In this document: in pieces, positions 6,216-51,733 of the stretch
Layout: every line of letters starts with the position of its first letter
How positions within the stretch are numbered: the stretch's first letter is position 1
Origin: Nostoc sp. HK-01
GTDB taxonomy: Bacteria > Cyanobacteriota > Cyanobacteriia > Cyanobacteriales > Nostocaceae
DNA: 64,000 bases
Reading direction: 5' to 3'
Assembly: GCA_003990705.1 (NCBI GenBank)
Contig: AP018318.1
Span: 2,483,501-2,547,500, forward strand
Notes under the pieces: model-generated
The model's input: the letters and a program-made list of their open reading frames with translations, nothing else
Databases searched by the model: none
What the model was told of the DNA's origin: nothing
Translations under genes and position numbers: made by a program

Positions 6216-7076
6216 TTAGTTTTCCTGGGGTAATCCGGCTAATCTGCGTTTATTCCAGATTGAGTAGGGAACACCTACAAAAGCTCCCAAAATTAGATAA
6301 GCCACCAGCGTCGGAATCACCTGCTGTTGTACATGATTCAAAATAGCAATAAACAAAGCTAAACCAAAATTGCGAGCAATACAGAAAATCGCCAAGGTAG
6401 ATTGGGTATCATCATCGAATCTGCCTAAAGCGTGTCCAATTCCTAGAGAGGTAATCACCATAATTGCGATCGCTACCAGTGGTAATTCCCCAACTTTGGA
6501 AAACATTGGCAGCCCTAAGATGCACAATAAAACAACCAGCACCAAAAAGAGACTGTTAGCAATAAAAGTCAAGGGTTTAGCAATCTGTTGGGTAAATGTA
6601 GGCGCGAACTTTTGCATCAAAATACCGACACTGACGGGTAATAACTGCACCATAATCACTTGTCGGGCAACTTCTAAAATTGCCACCTTTTGTGAAATAC
6701 TCGCAAATAAGGTAGCGAAAATTGCCAAGGTAATAGGAGTAACAAAAACCGCCAGTATTGCCAGAGTTAGCTGAAGACTTGCTGAGTAGTGGAAGCTGCC
6801 TCCAGCCTGTTGCGATCGCTTTGTAGTCAGAGGCGCACCCGGAGAAGCTGCCAGTAAAGCCAATCCGATCATCACTGCCGGTGGTAAGTTAAACAGTTTC
6901 AGCAGAAGAATAACTACTAAAGGAACCAGCACAACAACCGCTAAAAGCGCACGGAATACTAAGGCAGGTTTTCGCCAGAAAGAGCGCATCTTTTCAAAAG
7001 AGAGGTTGCACCCTATGGCTAACATCAGAGAAAAAATAGTGACTTTAACGAGAACCAGTAATAAGGGATGGTGCAT
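6216..7076 (-). CDS. Bile acid:sodium symporter-like (BASS/SBF) membrane protein
   Basis: Integral inner-membrane protein of 286 residues with about eight to nine hydrophobic segments. Features of the BASS/SBF superfamily are the GLALLAASPGAPLTT stretch (about residue 70-85) and a final helical part with FCIARNFGLALFIAILNH. Family members move organic anions or small carboxylates with sodium; the substrate cannot be told here. It lies about 110 nt downstream of the arylsulfatase gene on the same strand, so a link to sulfated organics is possible. The 3' part (6261-6473) has a decayed second copy at 11732-11944. Confidence 0.75.
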   Translation of the reverse strand: MHHPLLLVLVKVTIFSLMLAIGCNLSFEKMRSFWRKPALVFRALLAVVVLVPLVVILLLKLFNLPPAVMIGLALLAASPGAPLTTKRSQQAGGSFHYSASLQLTLAILAVFVTPITLAIFATLFASISQKVAILEVARQVIMVQLLPVSVGILMQKFAPTFTQQIAKPLTFIANSLFLVLVVLLCILGLPMFSKVGELPLVAIAIMVITSLGIGHALGRFDDDTQSTLAIFCIARNFGLALFIAILNHVQQQVIPTLVAYLILGAFVGVPYSIWNKRRLAGLPQEN

Positions 7077-7188: not shown

Positions 7189-9543
7189 CTACTGTCGTGC
7201 CAGAAGGGTACGCATTTCAGCTTCCTTATCGTGAATCAAATCTCCACTAACATCCACTATCACACTATAAATCTTGCCCGTAAACTTGAAAGGCGGTTCA
7301 TAATCGGGTGTTACAGGCGCACCAGGGGCAATGCCACAAGTCACACCACTGGTCAGACCTAGTGCTAAGGGAGTCGTCACAGGCACATCGGCTTGGCCAA
7401 CCAATTTCTCATTGATATACAGTTGGACATGACCCGGCGTTCCTTTCCCCTTGGCTAAATCTGGTTGACCCGTGACTTTAAACTCAAAGCGTAACTGGTG
7501 ACGACCTTCCGGCACAGATGACCCAGACTCGACATGATAGAGCGATCGCGCTACATAATTATGAACCCAGTGCAGTTTGCCATCTTTGACATAGAAGGAG
7601 TAGCCACTATCATTACCTCCGTGAGCCAGTAATACTCCTTCTGCGCCACCTGTGGGAATTTCCACATCAGCCGTAATACTGTGAGAACGATTGAGCAACT
7701 TGACGGCACTATTGGCTGGGATTGCCTGAGTATCAGGATAGTAAGTATAGCGGCTACGATTGACGGCAATCTGAGGACGTTCTTCTGCAAATCGTTGTAC
7801 GCCTCTGCCATCCACAGGCAACACATTATACTTACCTGCCTCTACGTACCAAGTGGCAATCATTTCAATTAATTTAGGGCGATTATCAGCCGCAATATTA
7901 TGATTTTCTGAAAAATCTGAGGCGACGTGATACAGTTCCCAATGATGGGTATCCAAATCCGTAAGAGTTTCCGCCGAAATGGCCGCACCAAAAAACTGAC
8001 CTGCTTCTGCAAATGAGGGACCAGGCCAAGGACAAACCGCCCGCCAACCATCATAGTAAAGAGAACGATGTCCCATCATCTCGAAATATTGGGTCAGGTG
8101 CTTAGTAGGTACAGTACTATGATTAAAAGTATGGGCAAAACTGACACCTTCAATGGGAGATTGAGTAACACCCTTAATCGTTGTTGGTGGTTCAATTTCC
8201 AGTAATTCCAGCACAGTCGGCACTAGGTCAATAGCATGAGCGTACTGAGTACGGATTTCACCTTTTGCCTCAATGCCTTGATTCCAATGGACAATCAAGG
8301 GATCGCTGATTCCACCCCGATAAGTTTCCCGTTTCCAACGGCGGAAAGGCGTATTACCTGCCCAAGTCCAACCCCAAGCATAATGGTTGAAAGTTTCTGG
8401 ACTGCCTAGCTTATCTAGTGCCTTGAGATTTTCCTCTAGGGATTCTGGCACATTGTTAAAAAAGAGGTTCTCATTAACTGAACCAGTTGGCCCCCCTTCA
8501 GAACTTGCCCCATTGTCCGAAATCACCATAATTACGGTATTCTCGAACTCAGCGATCGCTTTGAGGAAGTCGAGTAAGCGACCGATATGGTGGTCAGTGT
8601 GGGTTAAAAAGCCAGCATATACTTCCATCATCCGGGCATAAAGCCGTTTTTCTGCGGCTGAGAGGGAATCCCAGTGCGGGACATCGGGATCATGGCGGGA
8701 GAGTTCAGCATCTGCGGGGACAATCCCCATTTCCTGCTGACGGGCAAAAACCTTTTCCCTGTATGCTTCCCAGCCATCATCAAACTGTCCGGCGTAGGCA
8801 TCAGCCCATTCTTTCGGTACATGATGGGGGGCGTGCATCGCACCAGGACAGAAATACATGAAAAAGGGTTTATCGGGGGCAACCTGCTTGGCATCAGCGA
8901 TAAAGCTAATTGCCTTGTCTGCCAAGTCTGCGGTTAAATGGTAGCCTTCTGCGGGGGTCTTTTCTGGCTTAACGGTGTGGTTGTCATAAACCAAATCTGG
9001 ATAATACTGGTGGGTTTCTCCGCCCAGAAAACCATAAAAACGTTCAAAACCGCGACCGAGAGGCCAACGGTCATAGGGGCCAGCCGCAGATAGCTGGTTT
9101 GAGGGGGTTAAATGCCATTTCCCGATCGCATAGGTGTTATAACCCTTCTGTAATAATATCTCCGAGAGAAACCCATTCTCAAAGGGAATATTCCCATTAC
9201 TACCTGGATAACCGGTAGAACCTTCTGTGATGCAGGACATGGCGTTGGAATGGTGATTGCGCCCAGTGAGAAGGCAAGAACGGGTGGGTGAACACAACGC
9301 CGTCGTGTGTAGATTGTTGTAGCGCAAACCATTGGCGGCTAGTACGTCTAGGTTGGGTGTTTTGATGGGACTTCCGTAACATCCAAATTGCCCAAAGCCT
9401 GTATCATCGAAAACGATAAATAGGACGTTGGGTGTACCTTCTTTAGATCGCAACGGTTCTGGCCAAGCTGGACTAGATTTATCAACTGTCCGACCGATGA
9501 CACCGGGGAAAGTATTTCCTGGTTTGTATTCACGCAGAGACAT
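7189..9543 (-). CDS. Arylsulfatase (sulfatase family S1)
   Basis: Hydrolyses sulfate esters. The 784-residue protein opens with the sulfatase fold: metal-binding FIVFDDTGFGQFGCYG (about 42-57) and the formylglycine signature CSPTR (84-88) with TGR following; Cys84 must be oxidised by a formylglycine-generating enzyme, which is not in this window. The C-terminal part (about 590-784) looks like a beta-sandwich with a LamG-like pattern (VLLAHGGNDSGYSFYVKDGKL). This two-part architecture is seen in large PAS-type arylsulfatases. No signal peptide is visible. It is the middle gene of a minus-strand block with P450, DUF202 and BASS genes. A role in sulfur scavenging or in metabolism of a sulfated secondary compound is inferred. 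Confidence 0.92.
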   Translation of the reverse strand: MSLREYKPGNTFPGVIGRTVDKSSPAWPEPLRSKEGTPNVLFIVFDDTGFGQFGCYGSPIKTPNLDVLAANGLRYNNLHTTALCSPTRSCLLTGRNHHSNAMSCITEGSTGYPGSNGNIPFENGFLSEILLQKGYNTYAIGKWHLTPSNQLSAAGPYDRWPLGRGFERFYGFLGGETHQYYPDLVYDNHTVKPEKTPAEGYHLTADLADKAISFIADAKQVAPDKPFFMYFCPGAMHAPHHVPKEWADAYAGQFDDGWEAYREKVFARQQEMGIVPADAELSRHDPDVPHWDSLSAAEKRLYARMMEVYAGFLTHTDHHIGRLLDFLKAIAEFENTVIMVISDNGASSEGGPTGSVNENLFFNNVPESLEENLKALDKLGSPETFNHYAWGWTWAGNTPFRRWKRETYRGGISDPLIVHWNQGIEAKGEIRTQYAHAIDLVPTVLELLEIEPPTTIKGVTQSPIEGVSFAHTFNHSTVPTKHLTQYFEMMGHRSLYYDGWRAVCPWPGPSFAEAGQFFGAAISAETLTDLDTHHWELYHVASDFSENHNIAADNRPKLIEMIATWYVEAGKYNVLPVDGRGVQRFAEERPQIAVNRSRYTYYPDTQAIPANSAVKLLNRSHSITADVEIPTGGAEGVLLAHGGNDSGYSFYVKDGKLHWVHNYVARSLYHVESGSSVPEGRHQLRFEFKVTGQPDLAKGKGTPGHVQLYINEKLVGQADVPVTTPLALGLTSGVTCGIAPGAPVTPDYEPPFKFTGKIYSVIVDVSGDLIHDKEAEMRTLLARQ

Positions 9544-9618: not shown

Positions 9619-10056
9619 TTATAAATTCATTGCCCTAATTAGCACACCAATAAAACTAACTAAGCCAATTATGAGTAAAGCCACTCCGATAATTTCCGCA
9701 CTGTGAGAAGTTTCATAGGTATAGTGATTATTTTGGATTTGTTTAAGTAACCGATGGTGTTCTCTCAACCCTAAAACCATTGCCAACATTCCCGTACCAA
9801 TGAAAGACAACCCCACAATCACCGAAAATCTGACTGGGTTAAGATGATGACTAAGACGAGTATTTTCAATCGCTCTGACAATGGTAGGGATACCAAAACC
9901 AAAACCAATCAACGAAAGACAGGTGCGTATCCACGCCATTAATGTGCGGTCTGCTGCCGCCCGACTGCGGTATTTAGCTAGTTCTGTCCGATCTGCTGCT
10001 AAGTCATTGGTAGATAACTTTTCAGGTGTTTCTGAGTTTATGGGTAGCTGACTCAT
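9619..10056 (-). CDS. YidH-like DUF202 membrane protein
   Basis: A 145-residue protein with three membrane segments. The DUF202 signature is the DRTLMAWIRTCLSLIGFGFG stretch (about residues 36-55), with helices near 75-95 and 120-142. The function of the family is not established. Its ATG shares one base with the TAA stop of the P450 gene (TAATG), a strong sign of translational coupling. The N-terminal 30 residues are polar and cytoplasmic. Why a DUF202 protein should be coupled to a P450 is unknown. Confidence 0.85.
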   Translation of the reverse strand: MSQLPINSETPEKLSTNDLAADRTELAKYRSRAAADRTLMAWIRTCLSLIGFGFGIPTIVRAIENTRLSHHLNPVRFSVIVGLSFIGTGMLAMVLGLREHHRLLKQIQNNHYTYETSHSAEIIGVALLIIGLVSFIGVLIRAMNL

Positions 10057-11354: not shown

Positions 11355-11731
11355 AATTAGTAGGAGATGACTATGTTTGCGGAGTAGGATTTATAGCGTT
11401 GCATAAGTATGGGATGAATTGGTCGTTGAAACCGTTGGAAATACGTTCAAAATTGGGCGAAATCATCCCATGATATGGCTAACGCCAAGCTGCGCTAACA
11501 GTAACGCCGTGATTTATTTAAGCATTTTGAATTTTTTCCATGCCCAAAAGTCTTTCAACGAAACTATGAATGGTTTTCTCCTAAATTTAGAGTTGGTGAT
11601 CCCCCCAGAGTAAAAGTTTGATAAATAATTTATCTCTGCCGAACAAAAGATATATTTGCTATACAATTTCTACTTATGGAATGATTTGGGCAAAACTTTT
11701 TTATAGTAGTCTTTACTCGATGTGCGACTTA
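11355..11731. other. Non-coding spacer upstream of the P450 gene, with inverted and dispersed repeats
   Basis: No convincing gene. ATGGGATGA (11409-11417) and TCATCCCAT (11463-11471) form a perfect 9-bp inverted repeat with a 45-nt loop. A dispersed-repeat-like GGCTAACGCCAAGCTGCGCT follows at about 11477. A 64-codon open frame here (11419-11613) has no recognisable family or good start context. The P450 promoter should lie within the first 100-200 nt, but I cannot assign its boxes. Confidence 0.5.
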
Positions 11732-11944
11732 TGAGTAAAGAACGCCTGCAAAAGCTCCCAGAATTACATAAGCCACCAGCGTTAATATCACCTGCTGTTG
11801 TACATGATTCAAAATAGCGATAAACAAAGCTAAACCAAAATTGCGAGCAGTACAGAAAATCGCCAAGCTAGAACGCGTATCATCATCGAGTCTGCCTAAA
11901 GCTTGTCTAATTCCTAGAGAGGCAATCACCATAATTGCGATCGC
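11732..11944 (-). pseudogene. Fragment of a second BASS/SBF transporter gene (C-terminal part)
   Basis: This stretch aligns without gaps to 6261-6473 of the intact transporter gene, with roughly 20 mismatches over 213 bases by hand alignment (about 90% identical). It encodes about 67 residues of the C-terminal region (LDDDTRSSLAIFCTARNFG versus FDDDTQSTLAIFCIARNFG). The frame stops early and the N-terminal two thirds are missing. Similarity ends exactly at the GCGATCGC octamer at 11937-11944. It has the same orientation as the intact copy, so the two are direct repeats flanking the sulfatase-P450 block. Confidence 0.85.
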
Positions 11945-12085
11945 ATTTTCTATAAATGGAGTTGCAGAAATAGATTTTTATCTAATATTTGCTATTTTTG
12001 CGATCGCATTTTCTATAAATGGAGTTGCAGAAATAGATTTTGCTTTCGCATTTATTATTTTGGCGATCGCGTTTTCTATTAATGA
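11937..12085. repeat. HIP1-phased 63-bp tandem repeat
   Basis: GCGATCGC octamers begin at 11937, 12000 and 12063, exactly 63 bases apart. Each is followed by TTTTCTAT, and the first two units share about 43 bases including ATAAATGGAGTTGCAGAAAT. The third unit is partial and diverged. As 63 is a multiple of three, a plus-strand frame (11841-12170) stays open across it, giving two copies of AIAFSINGVAEIDF and a partial third; I do not regard this as a proven gene. Confidence 0.85.
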
Positions 12086-12141
12086 ATCAATTTTTCCTAA
12101 GTCAGTTTCTCTATTAAATTTTCACTTCCAATTACTTTGTA

Positions 12142-12172
12142 TTTTAGGGCAGGCAAAATGCCTACCCTAAAA
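12142..12172 (-). terminator. Hairpin after ndhH
   Basis: TTTTAGGGCAGGCA and TGCCTACCCTAAAA pair with one mismatch around a 3-nt loop, 11 nt downstream of the ndhH stop. It resembles the hairpin at 20551-20577 in stem, loop and flanking A/T, so both may belong to one dispersed hairpin family that can serve as a terminator. Confidence 0.6.
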
Positions 12173-12182
12173 GAATCATCGC

Positions 12183-13367
12183 TTATCTGTCTACAGATCC
12201 CATGATTACGTCAATACTACCGAGAATCACCACAACATCTGCAACTTTCATACCCCGCAATAAATGAGGCAGAATTTGTAAGTTGTTGAAATCTGCTGGG
12301 CGAATTTTCCAGCGCCAAGGGAAGACATTATCATCACCAACGAGATAAATGCCTAATTCACCTTTACCGCTTTCGACACGGGCATAAATTTCACCTGCGG
12401 GCATTTTAAAAGTGGGGGAAACTTTCTTGCCAATAAACTGGTAATCAAAAGCATCCCACTCGGATTTTTTGCCAGCAGCTAGGCGTTTAGCTTCTAGGTT
12501 TTCGTAGGGGCCGCCGGGTAGTCCTTTGATGGCTTGCTTGATAATTTTCACGGATTCGCGCATTTCTCGCATCCGCACCATGTAACGGGCTAAACAATCA
12601 CCAGTAGTTTCCCACTGAACGTCCCAGTCAAAATCGTCATAGCACTCGTAATGGTCAACTTTACGCAAATCCCACTTCACGCCAGAAGCGCGTAACATAG
12701 GGCCAGACAGCCCCCAGTTAATTGCTTCTTCGCGGGTAATTGTGCCAATACCTTCAATACGACGGCGGAAGATGGGGTTATTGGTAACTAACTTTTCGTA
12801 TTCATCAACTACAGGTAAAAAGTAGTCACAAAATTCGAGACACTTATCTACCCAACCATAAGGCAAATCAGCAGCTACACCACCAACGCGGAAGTAGTTG
12901 TTATTTACCATCCGGTAGCCTGTAGCCGCTTCCCACAAATCGTAAATCATCTCCCGTTCTCGGAACTGATAGAAGAAGGGAGTTTGTGCGCCCACGTCAG
13001 CCAGGAACGGGCCGAACCACAGCAAATGGTTGGCGATGCGATTTAGTTCTAGCATAATGACGCGGATGTAGCTGGCGCGTTTTGGTACAGCCACACCAGC
13101 TAACTTTTCTGGGGCGTTAACAGTGACAGCTTCGTTAAACATTCCCGCTGCATAGTCCCATCGACTAACGTAGGGGACGTACATAACAGTGGTGCGGTTC
13201 TCGGCAATTTTTTCCATACCTCGGTGTAGGTAGCCGATGACCGGTTCACAATCAATGACATCCTCGCCATCCAATGTGACAATTAGCCTCAGAACCCCGT
13301 GCATTGAGGGGTGGTGTGGCCCCATATTCAGCACCATTGGTTCAGTACGGGTTTCTAGTCTTGCCAT
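12183..13367 (-). CDS. ndhH: NAD(P)H-quinone oxidoreductase subunit H (NDH-1)
   Basis: 49-kDa-type subunit of the peripheral arm of the thylakoid NDH-1 complex, which passes electrons from ferredoxin to plastoquinone in respiration and cyclic flow around photosystem I. The 394-residue length is that of cyanobacterial and plastid NdhH. Conserved features are [14 protein letters not shown] near the N-terminus, [14 protein letters not shown], and the C-terminal [16 protein letters not shown]. It stands alone here, as is usual for cyanobacteria where ndhH is not part of one large nuo-like operon. The hairpin at 12142 probably ends its transcript. Confidence 0.97.
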
Positions 13368-50811: not shown

Positions 50812-51733
50812 TATTGAATCCCTAATAGGGATTAGTTGAAATTGCAATACTTCTTTATTAACTTAGTTCCACCCCAAGCGCAGGTTTCAATCCCTAATAG
50901 GGATTAGTTGAAATTGCAATTTCATACCTGATGCCTTTCCGTTAGGCTATCCGGGCAGTTTCAATCCCTAATAGGGATTAGTTGAAATTGCAATTTTTGT
51001 ATAAAATGTTATAATGCTTAAATATCGAGATTATTGTTTCAATCCCTAATAGGGATTAGTTGAAATTGCAATTGGCGATCGCGTCTATCGAGCAAGATGA
51101 AAATTTAACCCGTTTCAATCCCTAATAGGGATTAGTTGAAATTGCAATTCTCCAAGGAGTAATTAGGGGATTATCTTTATGTTTCAATCCCTAATAGGGA
51201 TTAGTTGAAATTGCAATCCCTCGCGCATTCTGTCTGCCACTTCACCAATAAAATCTTGTTTCAATCCCTAATAGGGATTAGTTGAAATTGCAATACTTCT
51301 CCAACTGATGTTAGTGTGTTATCCACTCCTGCTGGTTTCAATCCCTAATAGGGATTAGTTGAAATTGCAATGCAATGGTGGACAGCTAGTGATCAACTAG
51401 AAGAGGTTTCAATCCCTAATAGGGATTAGTTGAAATTGCAATAGTCCAAACATCCGTTCAAGCAGCACTCAACGCCGGGTTTCAATCCCTAATAGGGATT
51501 AGTTGAAATTGCAATCCTGTACCCAGTCAGTAGACTCATCCTCACTTAAACGTTTCAATCCCTAATAGGGATTAGTTGAAATTGCAATCCATACACTGTC
51601 TATCTTGTAGGTTGGGACATGAGTTTGTTTCAATCCCTAATAGGGATTAGTTGAAATTGCAATTATCTCAGCTACTTAAAGAATCATTTGATTGAGGTTT
51701 CAATCCCTAATAGGGATTAGTTGAAATTGCAAT
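50812..51733 (-). CRISPR. CRISPR array, 13 repeats and 12 spacers, no cas genes in window
   Basis: Thirteen 37-bp repeats at 50812, 50884, 50958, 51036, 51112, 51181, 51258, 51335, 51406, 51479, 51552, 51627 and 51697. On the plus strand they begin GTTTCAATCCC and end TTGAAATTGCAAT, with an AATCCC/GGGATT stem. Spacers are 32-41 bp. Only the first (50812-50848) differs at its left end (three mismatches, TATTG for GTTTC), marking the trailer. On the minus strand repeats end in ATTGAAAC, the usual 5' handle of type I-D or III crRNAs. So transcription should run right to left with the leader at 51734-51981. No cas gene lies within the 12 kb to the right or 50 kb to the left in view. Confidence 0.97.

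Follow-up and report, generated by a model that had tools for sequence, protein, structure and literature searches.

The window, the 64,000-bp stretch of the Nostoc sp. HK-01 genome considered here (AP018318.1, 2,483,501 to 2,547,500), carries two related copies of an SBF-type transporter gene, both on the minus strand. The intact, full-length copy, of the SBF family (bile acid:sodium symporter-like), lies at 6216..7076, and a truncated 3' part of about 71 codons, representing the 3' quarter of the gene, lies at 11732..11944. Between the two copies, again on the minus strand, are genes for a sulfatase (7189-9543), a DUF202 protein (9619-10056), and a cytochrome P450 (10056-11354). By BLASTN the fragment (11732-11944) is 91% identical to 6261-6473, with 193 of 213 bp matching in an ungapped alignment. 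The similarity stops at the last base of GCGATCGC, the HIP1 octamer, where a 63-bp repeat begins, so that the end point given in a preliminary description of this DNA is confirmed to the base. On the other side of the repeat lies ndhH (NAD(P)H-quinone oxidoreductase subunit H; 12183..13367, minus strand), with its 3' end facing the array.

The HIP1 word occurs at 11937, 12000, and 12063, at intervals of 63 bp and followed each time, one base later, by TTTTCTAT; the recurrence of the octamer and of the sequence after it had likewise been described correctly. Tandem Repeats Finder (TRF) returns a period of 63 with 2.4 copies and 87% matches over 11935-12084, and the first 42 bp are identical between copies 1 and 2. 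The period of the tandem repeat is therefore as first reported, whereas its real unit is shorter, the 63-bp period being a three-unit higher-order repeat of 3 x 21 bp. Seven 21-bp units with a consensus near TTTTGCGATCGCATTTTCTAT are aligned in register over 11933..12079 (plus strand), and exact HIP1 forms the core of three of the seven. The sequence common to the transporter gene and the array unit is likewise longer than the octamer first noted, a 10-bp word, TTGCGATCGC, at 11935..11944 (no strand assigned). The register of the array continues across the joint, the transporter HIP1 standing exactly at the position of a repeat-unit core. The array itself retains open frames. A search of 11355-12200 against Rfam gave three weak matches, all far below family thresholds. 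Elsewhere in the window, 51111-51590 holds a period-73 tandem array with a CRISPR-like repeat, GTTTCAATCCCTAATAGGGATTAGTTGAAA.

HIP1 and the joint

The joint is shared with one other genome. In G001, of the same genus, the same fragment meets the array at the same joint, where HIP1 carries one substitution, and at the same site beside ndhH, the array being shorter than that of the window by one 63-bp step and the other end of the fragment about 125 bp longer. Among the eleven genomes of the genus compared, these two, the genome of the window (G000) and G001, carry the joint, and no match runs across it in the other nine. A short stretch downstream of ndhH, at 12131..12182 (no strand assigned) and marked by AGGGCAGGCA..TGCCTACCCT, is kept in G004, G005, G007, and G009, with neither array nor fragment there. 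Array and fragment may have been united in the common ancestor of Nostoc sp. HK-01 and G001. The ndhH gene of G008, however, is closer to that of the window (97% identical) than is that of G001 (95%), yet G008 lacks the joint, array, and fragment, so that loss or transfer must also have happened. In a different genus, a transporter remnant beside the DUF202 gene of G012 breaks off at the equivalent of window position 6445, which is 28 bp short of where the HIP1 word ends, and an array of the window type was not found in that genome. Thus, unless more was lost later, the transporter gene has been truncated elsewhere with no HIP1 at its end. As a separate observation, a window-type array in G016 (G016:C1:386588-386923; locus L158, 3588-3923) adjoins a second ndhH copy that is 78% identical, which is possibly a coincidence.

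Since the joint falls within a HIP1-containing 10-bp word common to both partners, and recurs in G001, this single event is most simply explained by a micro-homology join at HIP1. Such a join, or a deletion, bringing the transporter's HIP1 together with a unit core of the HIP1 type would have produced the joint in the window, and after the joining the array would have changed by one 63-bp step, or three units, between Nostoc sp. HK-01 and G001. Plain insertion of the array into HIP1 was considered and rejected because transporter sequence is absent beyond the array. The joint at HIP1 is real, is present in two species, and is compatible with a micro-homology join, which is plausible for this one event. 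Elhai (2015; PMC4390886) mentions some evidence for site-specific recombination at HIP1, with illegitimate recombination at low efficiency, and precise insertion of SDR5 inside HIP1. The present joint resembles such recombination sites in lying within HIP1 but is unlike them in that there is one joint only, the array being followed by no further transporter sequence.

Whether HIP1 promotes joining more generally was considered by way of a scan of duplication ends, the check that the preliminary description had proposed, run on 800 kb of the 7.52-Mb genome, as were the tests on tandem repeats. HIP1 is very frequent in this DNA, with 61 occurrences in the window, where shuffles lead to an expectation of 0.31, and 709 in the 800 kb; at about 0.9 per kb, a random duplication end would be expected to fall on HIP1 about 1% of the time. 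With a HIP1 end defined as one in which both copies share the word within the last 12 bp, and the expectation taken from the repeat interior, 4 of the 332 ends of 166 repeat pairs qualify versus 0.55 expected (nominal p 0.0025). The four include the present case and two ends from a single coding repeat; with the case removed and the repeat counted once, two independent loci are left and p rises to about 0.11. Similarly, when the first 400 kb are taken alone, 44 ends have identical terminal octamers and 3 of these are HIP1 (0.04 expected), the three being the present case and both ends of one coding repeat. The proposal that HIP1 served as the crossover point is thus plausible for the joint itself, which falls within the shared 10-bp word in G001 also; HIP1-mediated joining as a general process, which would call for an excess at duplication ends, may or may not occur on these counts.

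The further proposal, that HIP1 was first the crossover point and then seeded tandem expansion, can draw on the same joint, with its 10 shared bp and a register that is continuous across it, and on the face value of the 4 HIP1 ends. Against it, HIP1 is not enriched in tandem arrays, at least one HIP1 being present in 7 of 99 in the 800 kb where 10.7 were expected. Arrays with at least two HIP1 words are in excess (6 versus 2.2 expected, nominal p 0.013), as is expected whenever a repeated unit happens to include the word. Two GCGATCGC words spaced 21 bp apart occur at six places in the genome, one of them inside an array. Exact HIP1 is the core of 93 of the 412 units of the window's array type, the remainder showing 84 other octamers, and that share is if anything too high since the scoring matrix was built from units that often hold HIP1. 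Among arrays found upstream of a linked gene, described below, 29 of 54 lack an exact HIP1 and 25 have one. HIP1 is the commonest unit core and is not required. Moreover, arrays with the same unit occur elsewhere in this genome and in 13 others, mostly with no transporter sequence; the array type is present in 14 of 60 genomes, the joint in only 2 of the 11 of the genus. The preliminary description had held that its idea would fall if the unit were shared by all relatives with no transporter similarity, and the finding of such units in relatives, at most sites apart from any transporter sequence, comes near to that. Seeding by HIP1 is barely credible on this evidence: as the origin of the repeat HIP1 can be set aside, and as the joint it is plausible in a single case.

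A dispersed family of 21-bp arrays

With the window repeat as query, three other places are found in the same genome, and a two-unit model identifies four clear arrays in all. Across the 60 genomes, the 14 with window-type arrays are the genome of the window, nine of the other ten in the genus, and four from other genera. The inspected arrays lie almost wholly outside long genes, with small ORFs of up to 200 codons running along some of them. Where arrays occupy the same place in different genomes, the step is kept and the sequence differs, while the units within any one array are alike; this combination of likeness within arrays and divergence between genomes is the mark of concerted evolution. 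The window array shows the features by which the family is recognised, a step of 20-21.3 bp, at least three units, and a position outside long genes, here between the transporter fragment and ndhH. The 63-bp repeat is thus an orphan member of a dispersed family of arrays that have a 21-bp unit and are mainly intergenic. It is called an orphan because a protein search of its own genome showed no linked small-protein gene downstream of it, the next gene being ndhH, which faces the array. No plasmid match to the window repeat itself was found. The possibility that these arrays are CRISPR arrays was rejected, as their units stand head-to-tail with no spacers. A description of 21-bp arrays or of the linked gene was not found among open-access titles and abstracts, a search that covers few subscription journals and so is weak evidence of absence.

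Arrays linked to a family of small-protein genes

Elsewhere in the genome, 164 bp separate the array at C1:5035858-5036081 (in locus L010) from a downstream gene for a 145-aa protein, a member of a family that filamentous cyanobacteria carry in multiple copies. In all nine genomes compared, from three genera, an array lies upstream of this gene in the gene's own orientation. A scan of one genome from each of 84,980 species, which detects close relatives only, returned 61 loci in Nostoc, Desmonostoc, Fischerella, Westiellopsis, Elainella, Phormidium, and others. Loci were required to have at least 200 bp of upstream sequence, which removed L180 (69 bp) and left 60, and an array was called when a tandem repeat reached at least 70% identity over 84 bp. 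By this measure an array lies upstream in 54 of the 60, downstream in none of the 60, and upstream of none of 44 ORFs of the window. For 52 of the 54 the best lag is at two helical turns or a multiple thereof. The six loci with no upstream array are L203 (0.60 identity at lag 21) and five gene fragments that lack the N-terminus.

The association extends to more distant members of the family. At E up to 0.001, family matches number 8 in the genome of the window, 16 in G013, and 13 in G016, and occur in 19 of 60 genomes; at E up to 1e-6 the family is found in 14 of 292 genomes drawn evenly across the phylum. Of 20 members examined in four genomes (the 7 others of the own genome, 8 of 16 in G013, 3 of 8 in G014, and 2 of 13 in G016), 18 carry a 21-step array no more than 1 kb upstream, and the units differ within a genome. 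The two members with no nearby array are L261 and L255, the latter having only a 64-bp duplication 0.6-0.7 kb upstream. Among 29 further loci (L317, the L010 locus again, being left out), 22 have an array; when the nine that share a 60-mer with earlier loci are set aside, 14 of 20 do, and the six that do not include 2 of the 6 loci of family f33 and single loci of f37 and f41. In a search of plasmids, the family was found in one record only, a named plasmid of Kovacikia minuta (Leptolyngbyales), at two places, and both of these members have an array. Among viral contigs, 18 stretches matched a pattern and none encoded a relative.

In the own genome, chance proximity of array and gene would be rare: outside ORFs of more than 112 codons, the 800 kb contain eight arrays that are 80 bp or longer and step by 21 or a multiple of it, and two of the eight adjoin the only two family members in that stretch. 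The best array match follows the best protein match in 9 of 11 comparisons, which leave out L261 and L262, with disagreement for L271 and L272; five of the nine agreements score above 0.16, the top score between different arrays of the own genome, and the other four are at background.

Several irregular loci were also seen. In L261 (1043-800, on the reverse strand of G013:C1), a damaged copy of the 145-aa gene has one array unit, TATTTGCGATCGCATTTGCTG, fused near codon 5, with the usual leader and start codon missing; this is a second joint with an array unit on one side, and it is not at HIP1 itself. L341 and L320, in two genomes, have a perfect lag-76 repeat within 700 bp downstream of the family gene. 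In L328 (G071, which belongs to a different family within the phylum), the lag-21 array is on the downstream and not the upstream side of a weak family match, at a locus that is cut, so that its geometry is uncertain.

Units of unrelated sequence share the same spacing. In 74 arrays, from which five gene fragments, L180, L203, L261, and L262 are left out, mean lag identity is 0.84 at 21 bp, 0.85 at 42, and 0.83 at 63, and about 0.4 at other lags up to 70. The unit is 21 bp in 66 arrays, 20.5 in four, 21.3 in two, and 20 in one, so that 73 of the 74 have a step of 20-21.3 bp, or two helical turns, with one outlier at 24. In a survey of 54 arrays (the 61 loci less the five gene fragments and L180 leave 55, of which 54 have an array), the arrays are 10.7 units long at the median and end at a median distance of 182 bp from the start codon; in 47 of them, adjacent copies are free of indels.

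A step of 21 bp is also seven codons, and the arrays could be supposed to encode a seven-residue repeat peptide, in the window through a 109-aa ORF (11841-12170) or a minus-strand frame. At least two stop-free frames are present in 48 of the 54 arrays, and the small ORFs noted above run along some. Nevertheless, the best lag is 40, 41, or 64, not divisible by three, in 7 of the 74 arrays (one of the seven, L255, being doubtful), 6 of the 54 arrays have no stop-free frame, and at L010 no ATG, GTG, or TTG was seen by eye before the array in the open plus frame. The sharp peaks at 21, 42, and 63 bp together with lags that are not multiples of three point to helical phase rather than seven codons. 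A coding repeat is rejected as an explanation for the family on the 7 arrays with such lags and the 6 with no open frame, and for any of these arrays it is a highly improbable reading.

Another possibility is that the array acts as RNA, being transcribed in the 5' leader, with the protein binding the RNA repeats or the repeats serving as a small RNA. The placement of the arrays, with that median distance of 182 bp to the start codon and with the orientation of the gene in the nine genomes checked, would suit this. Array and start codon are separated by a leader of about 170 bp (L010 2590-2767 and orthologs in alignment A4; for example CACAAAACTACYCATCTCA), which is strongly conserved across genera and not shared with other family members. 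Against an RNA role, however, this leader yields no predicted conserved RNA pairs in 22 sequences, L010:2200-2800 gives only three weak Rfam matches, all far below family thresholds, and a two-turn step would have no obvious meaning in RNA. We regard this explanation as improbable.

The AlphaFold model of the 145-aa protein (mean pLDDT 78.6, pTM 0.49) consists of a helix at residues 9-24, a long helix at 36-89, a short helix, and a disordered tail. In all 47 aligned members both ends are basic, with a net charge of +3 to +6 in residues 1-25 and +3 to +9 in residues 100-118. Basic ends and the helical model fit binding to nucleic acid, a role to be regarded as predicted from charge and modelled structure. 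The L010 protein matches no Pfam or NCBIfam family at E up to 0.001, and Foldseek against the PDB returned seven hits, none at E up to 0.001, with no DNA-binding fold recognised. A Pfam scan of the 47 members produced scattered weak matches, the commonest being HBM (12 of 47, best E 0.00013), and no convincing relative was found in PHROGs (three members) or among PDB sequences (a profile of the 47). PADLOC, run on five members, returned ZorA at 14.4 bits, PDC-S06 at 13.7, and JetC at 12.2, which look like coiled-coil noise.

Orphan arrays may be understood in relation to these pairs. Scored against the eight upstream regions of their own genome, the window array and the orphans L008 and L009 are all most similar to the L010 array, and the fourth orphan is an 83% copy of the L254 array. 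Over the 60 genomes, a close gene (at least 72% identity) and window-type arrays occur together in 11, the gene alone in 1, the arrays alone in 3 (G001, G007, and G009), and neither in 45 (Fisher p 1e-8, uncorrected for kinship); the one genome with the gene alone, G014, has a different unit. Other arrays lack such a counterpart. Of the non-coding 21-step arrays in the 800 kb, three more match no cis array of the genome and a fourth matches weakly, so that arrays extend beyond the protein family. Two non-coding arrays 534 kb apart, at G000:C1:2367295-2367422 and 2901643-2901765, have a common unit near AGAACGTTCTCGTTTCAAATG, and no cis array of this type occurs among the eight upstream regions compared in the genome. 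Elsewhere, at L143 (2327-2515, G010:C122, with G010:C122:84918-85013), an array is followed by a remnant of the 145-aa gene (residues 113-144). L143 could be a decaying gene-array unit that might turn into an orphan.

Interpretation and comparison with known systems

These observations can be brought together if the arrays are rows of putative sites, all facing the same side of the helix, at which the cognate small protein would bind; this protein, being helical with basic ends, might regulate its own promoter. Orphan arrays would then be extra target sites or the remains of lost gene-array units; the orphans described here may be either. The explanation we consider best for the window combines three parts, an orphan of the gene-linked phased arrays, binding by a cognate protein, and a joint made by micro-homology at HIP1, and as a whole its chances of being right or wrong seem to us about equal.

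The principal alternative is that the arrays are ordinary minisatellites, made and homogenised by unequal exchange and slippage, upstream of the gene by common descent and binding nothing. Rapid change of copy number and unit sequence and homogenisation within genomes speak for it, as do orphan arrays with no cognate gene and the 63-bp step by which the window and G001 arrays differ. However, an array is kept at 54 of the 60 genes despite turnover of the unit sequence, 47 of 54 arrays show no indels between adjacent copies, and units of unrelated sequence share the 21-bp step; retention of the step after loss of the sequence would not be an expected outcome of drift. The minisatellite explanation therefore appears unlikely, although it merits serious consideration.

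A broader proposal goes beyond the window. Filamentous cyanobacteria may possess undescribed self-addressed units, each a small basic coiled-coil protein with its own two-turn-phased array, up to about 16 members in a genome with different arrays, the scattered orphans, including that of the window, serving as extra addresses. This is offered tentatively, as a possibility that we lean against in its full form. If true, parallel protein-array pairs would organise or regulate the chromosome. What the comparison exposes in any case is a widespread link between a gene family and a repeat array that is testable at once. Because the step is kept while the sequence is replaced in orthologous arrays, and because units differ within one cell, protein-DNA co-evolution and orthogonal binding specificity could be inferred from them; provided that the proteins do bind, dozens of natural protein/array pairs could show both.

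Several known systems share some of these features. The iterons of replicons are helically phased direct repeats of about 21 bp beside a protein gene, features that they have in common with the arrays described here. The arrays are unlike iterons in having many chromosomal copies and a protein that matches no known replication protein family and shows no recognised DNA-binding fold. The parS and parC arrays bound by ParB and ParR also place tandem sites upstream of a small protein gene, with other sites scattered, as here, whereas the L010 protein could be assigned to none of the Pfam or NCBIfam families at E up to 0.001. Finally, the STRR, LTRR, and SDR repeats of cyanobacteria are dispersed and variable in copy number, properties that the 21-bp arrays share; unlike these repeats, the 21-bp unit is tied to a gene family and differs between the members of that family within one genome.
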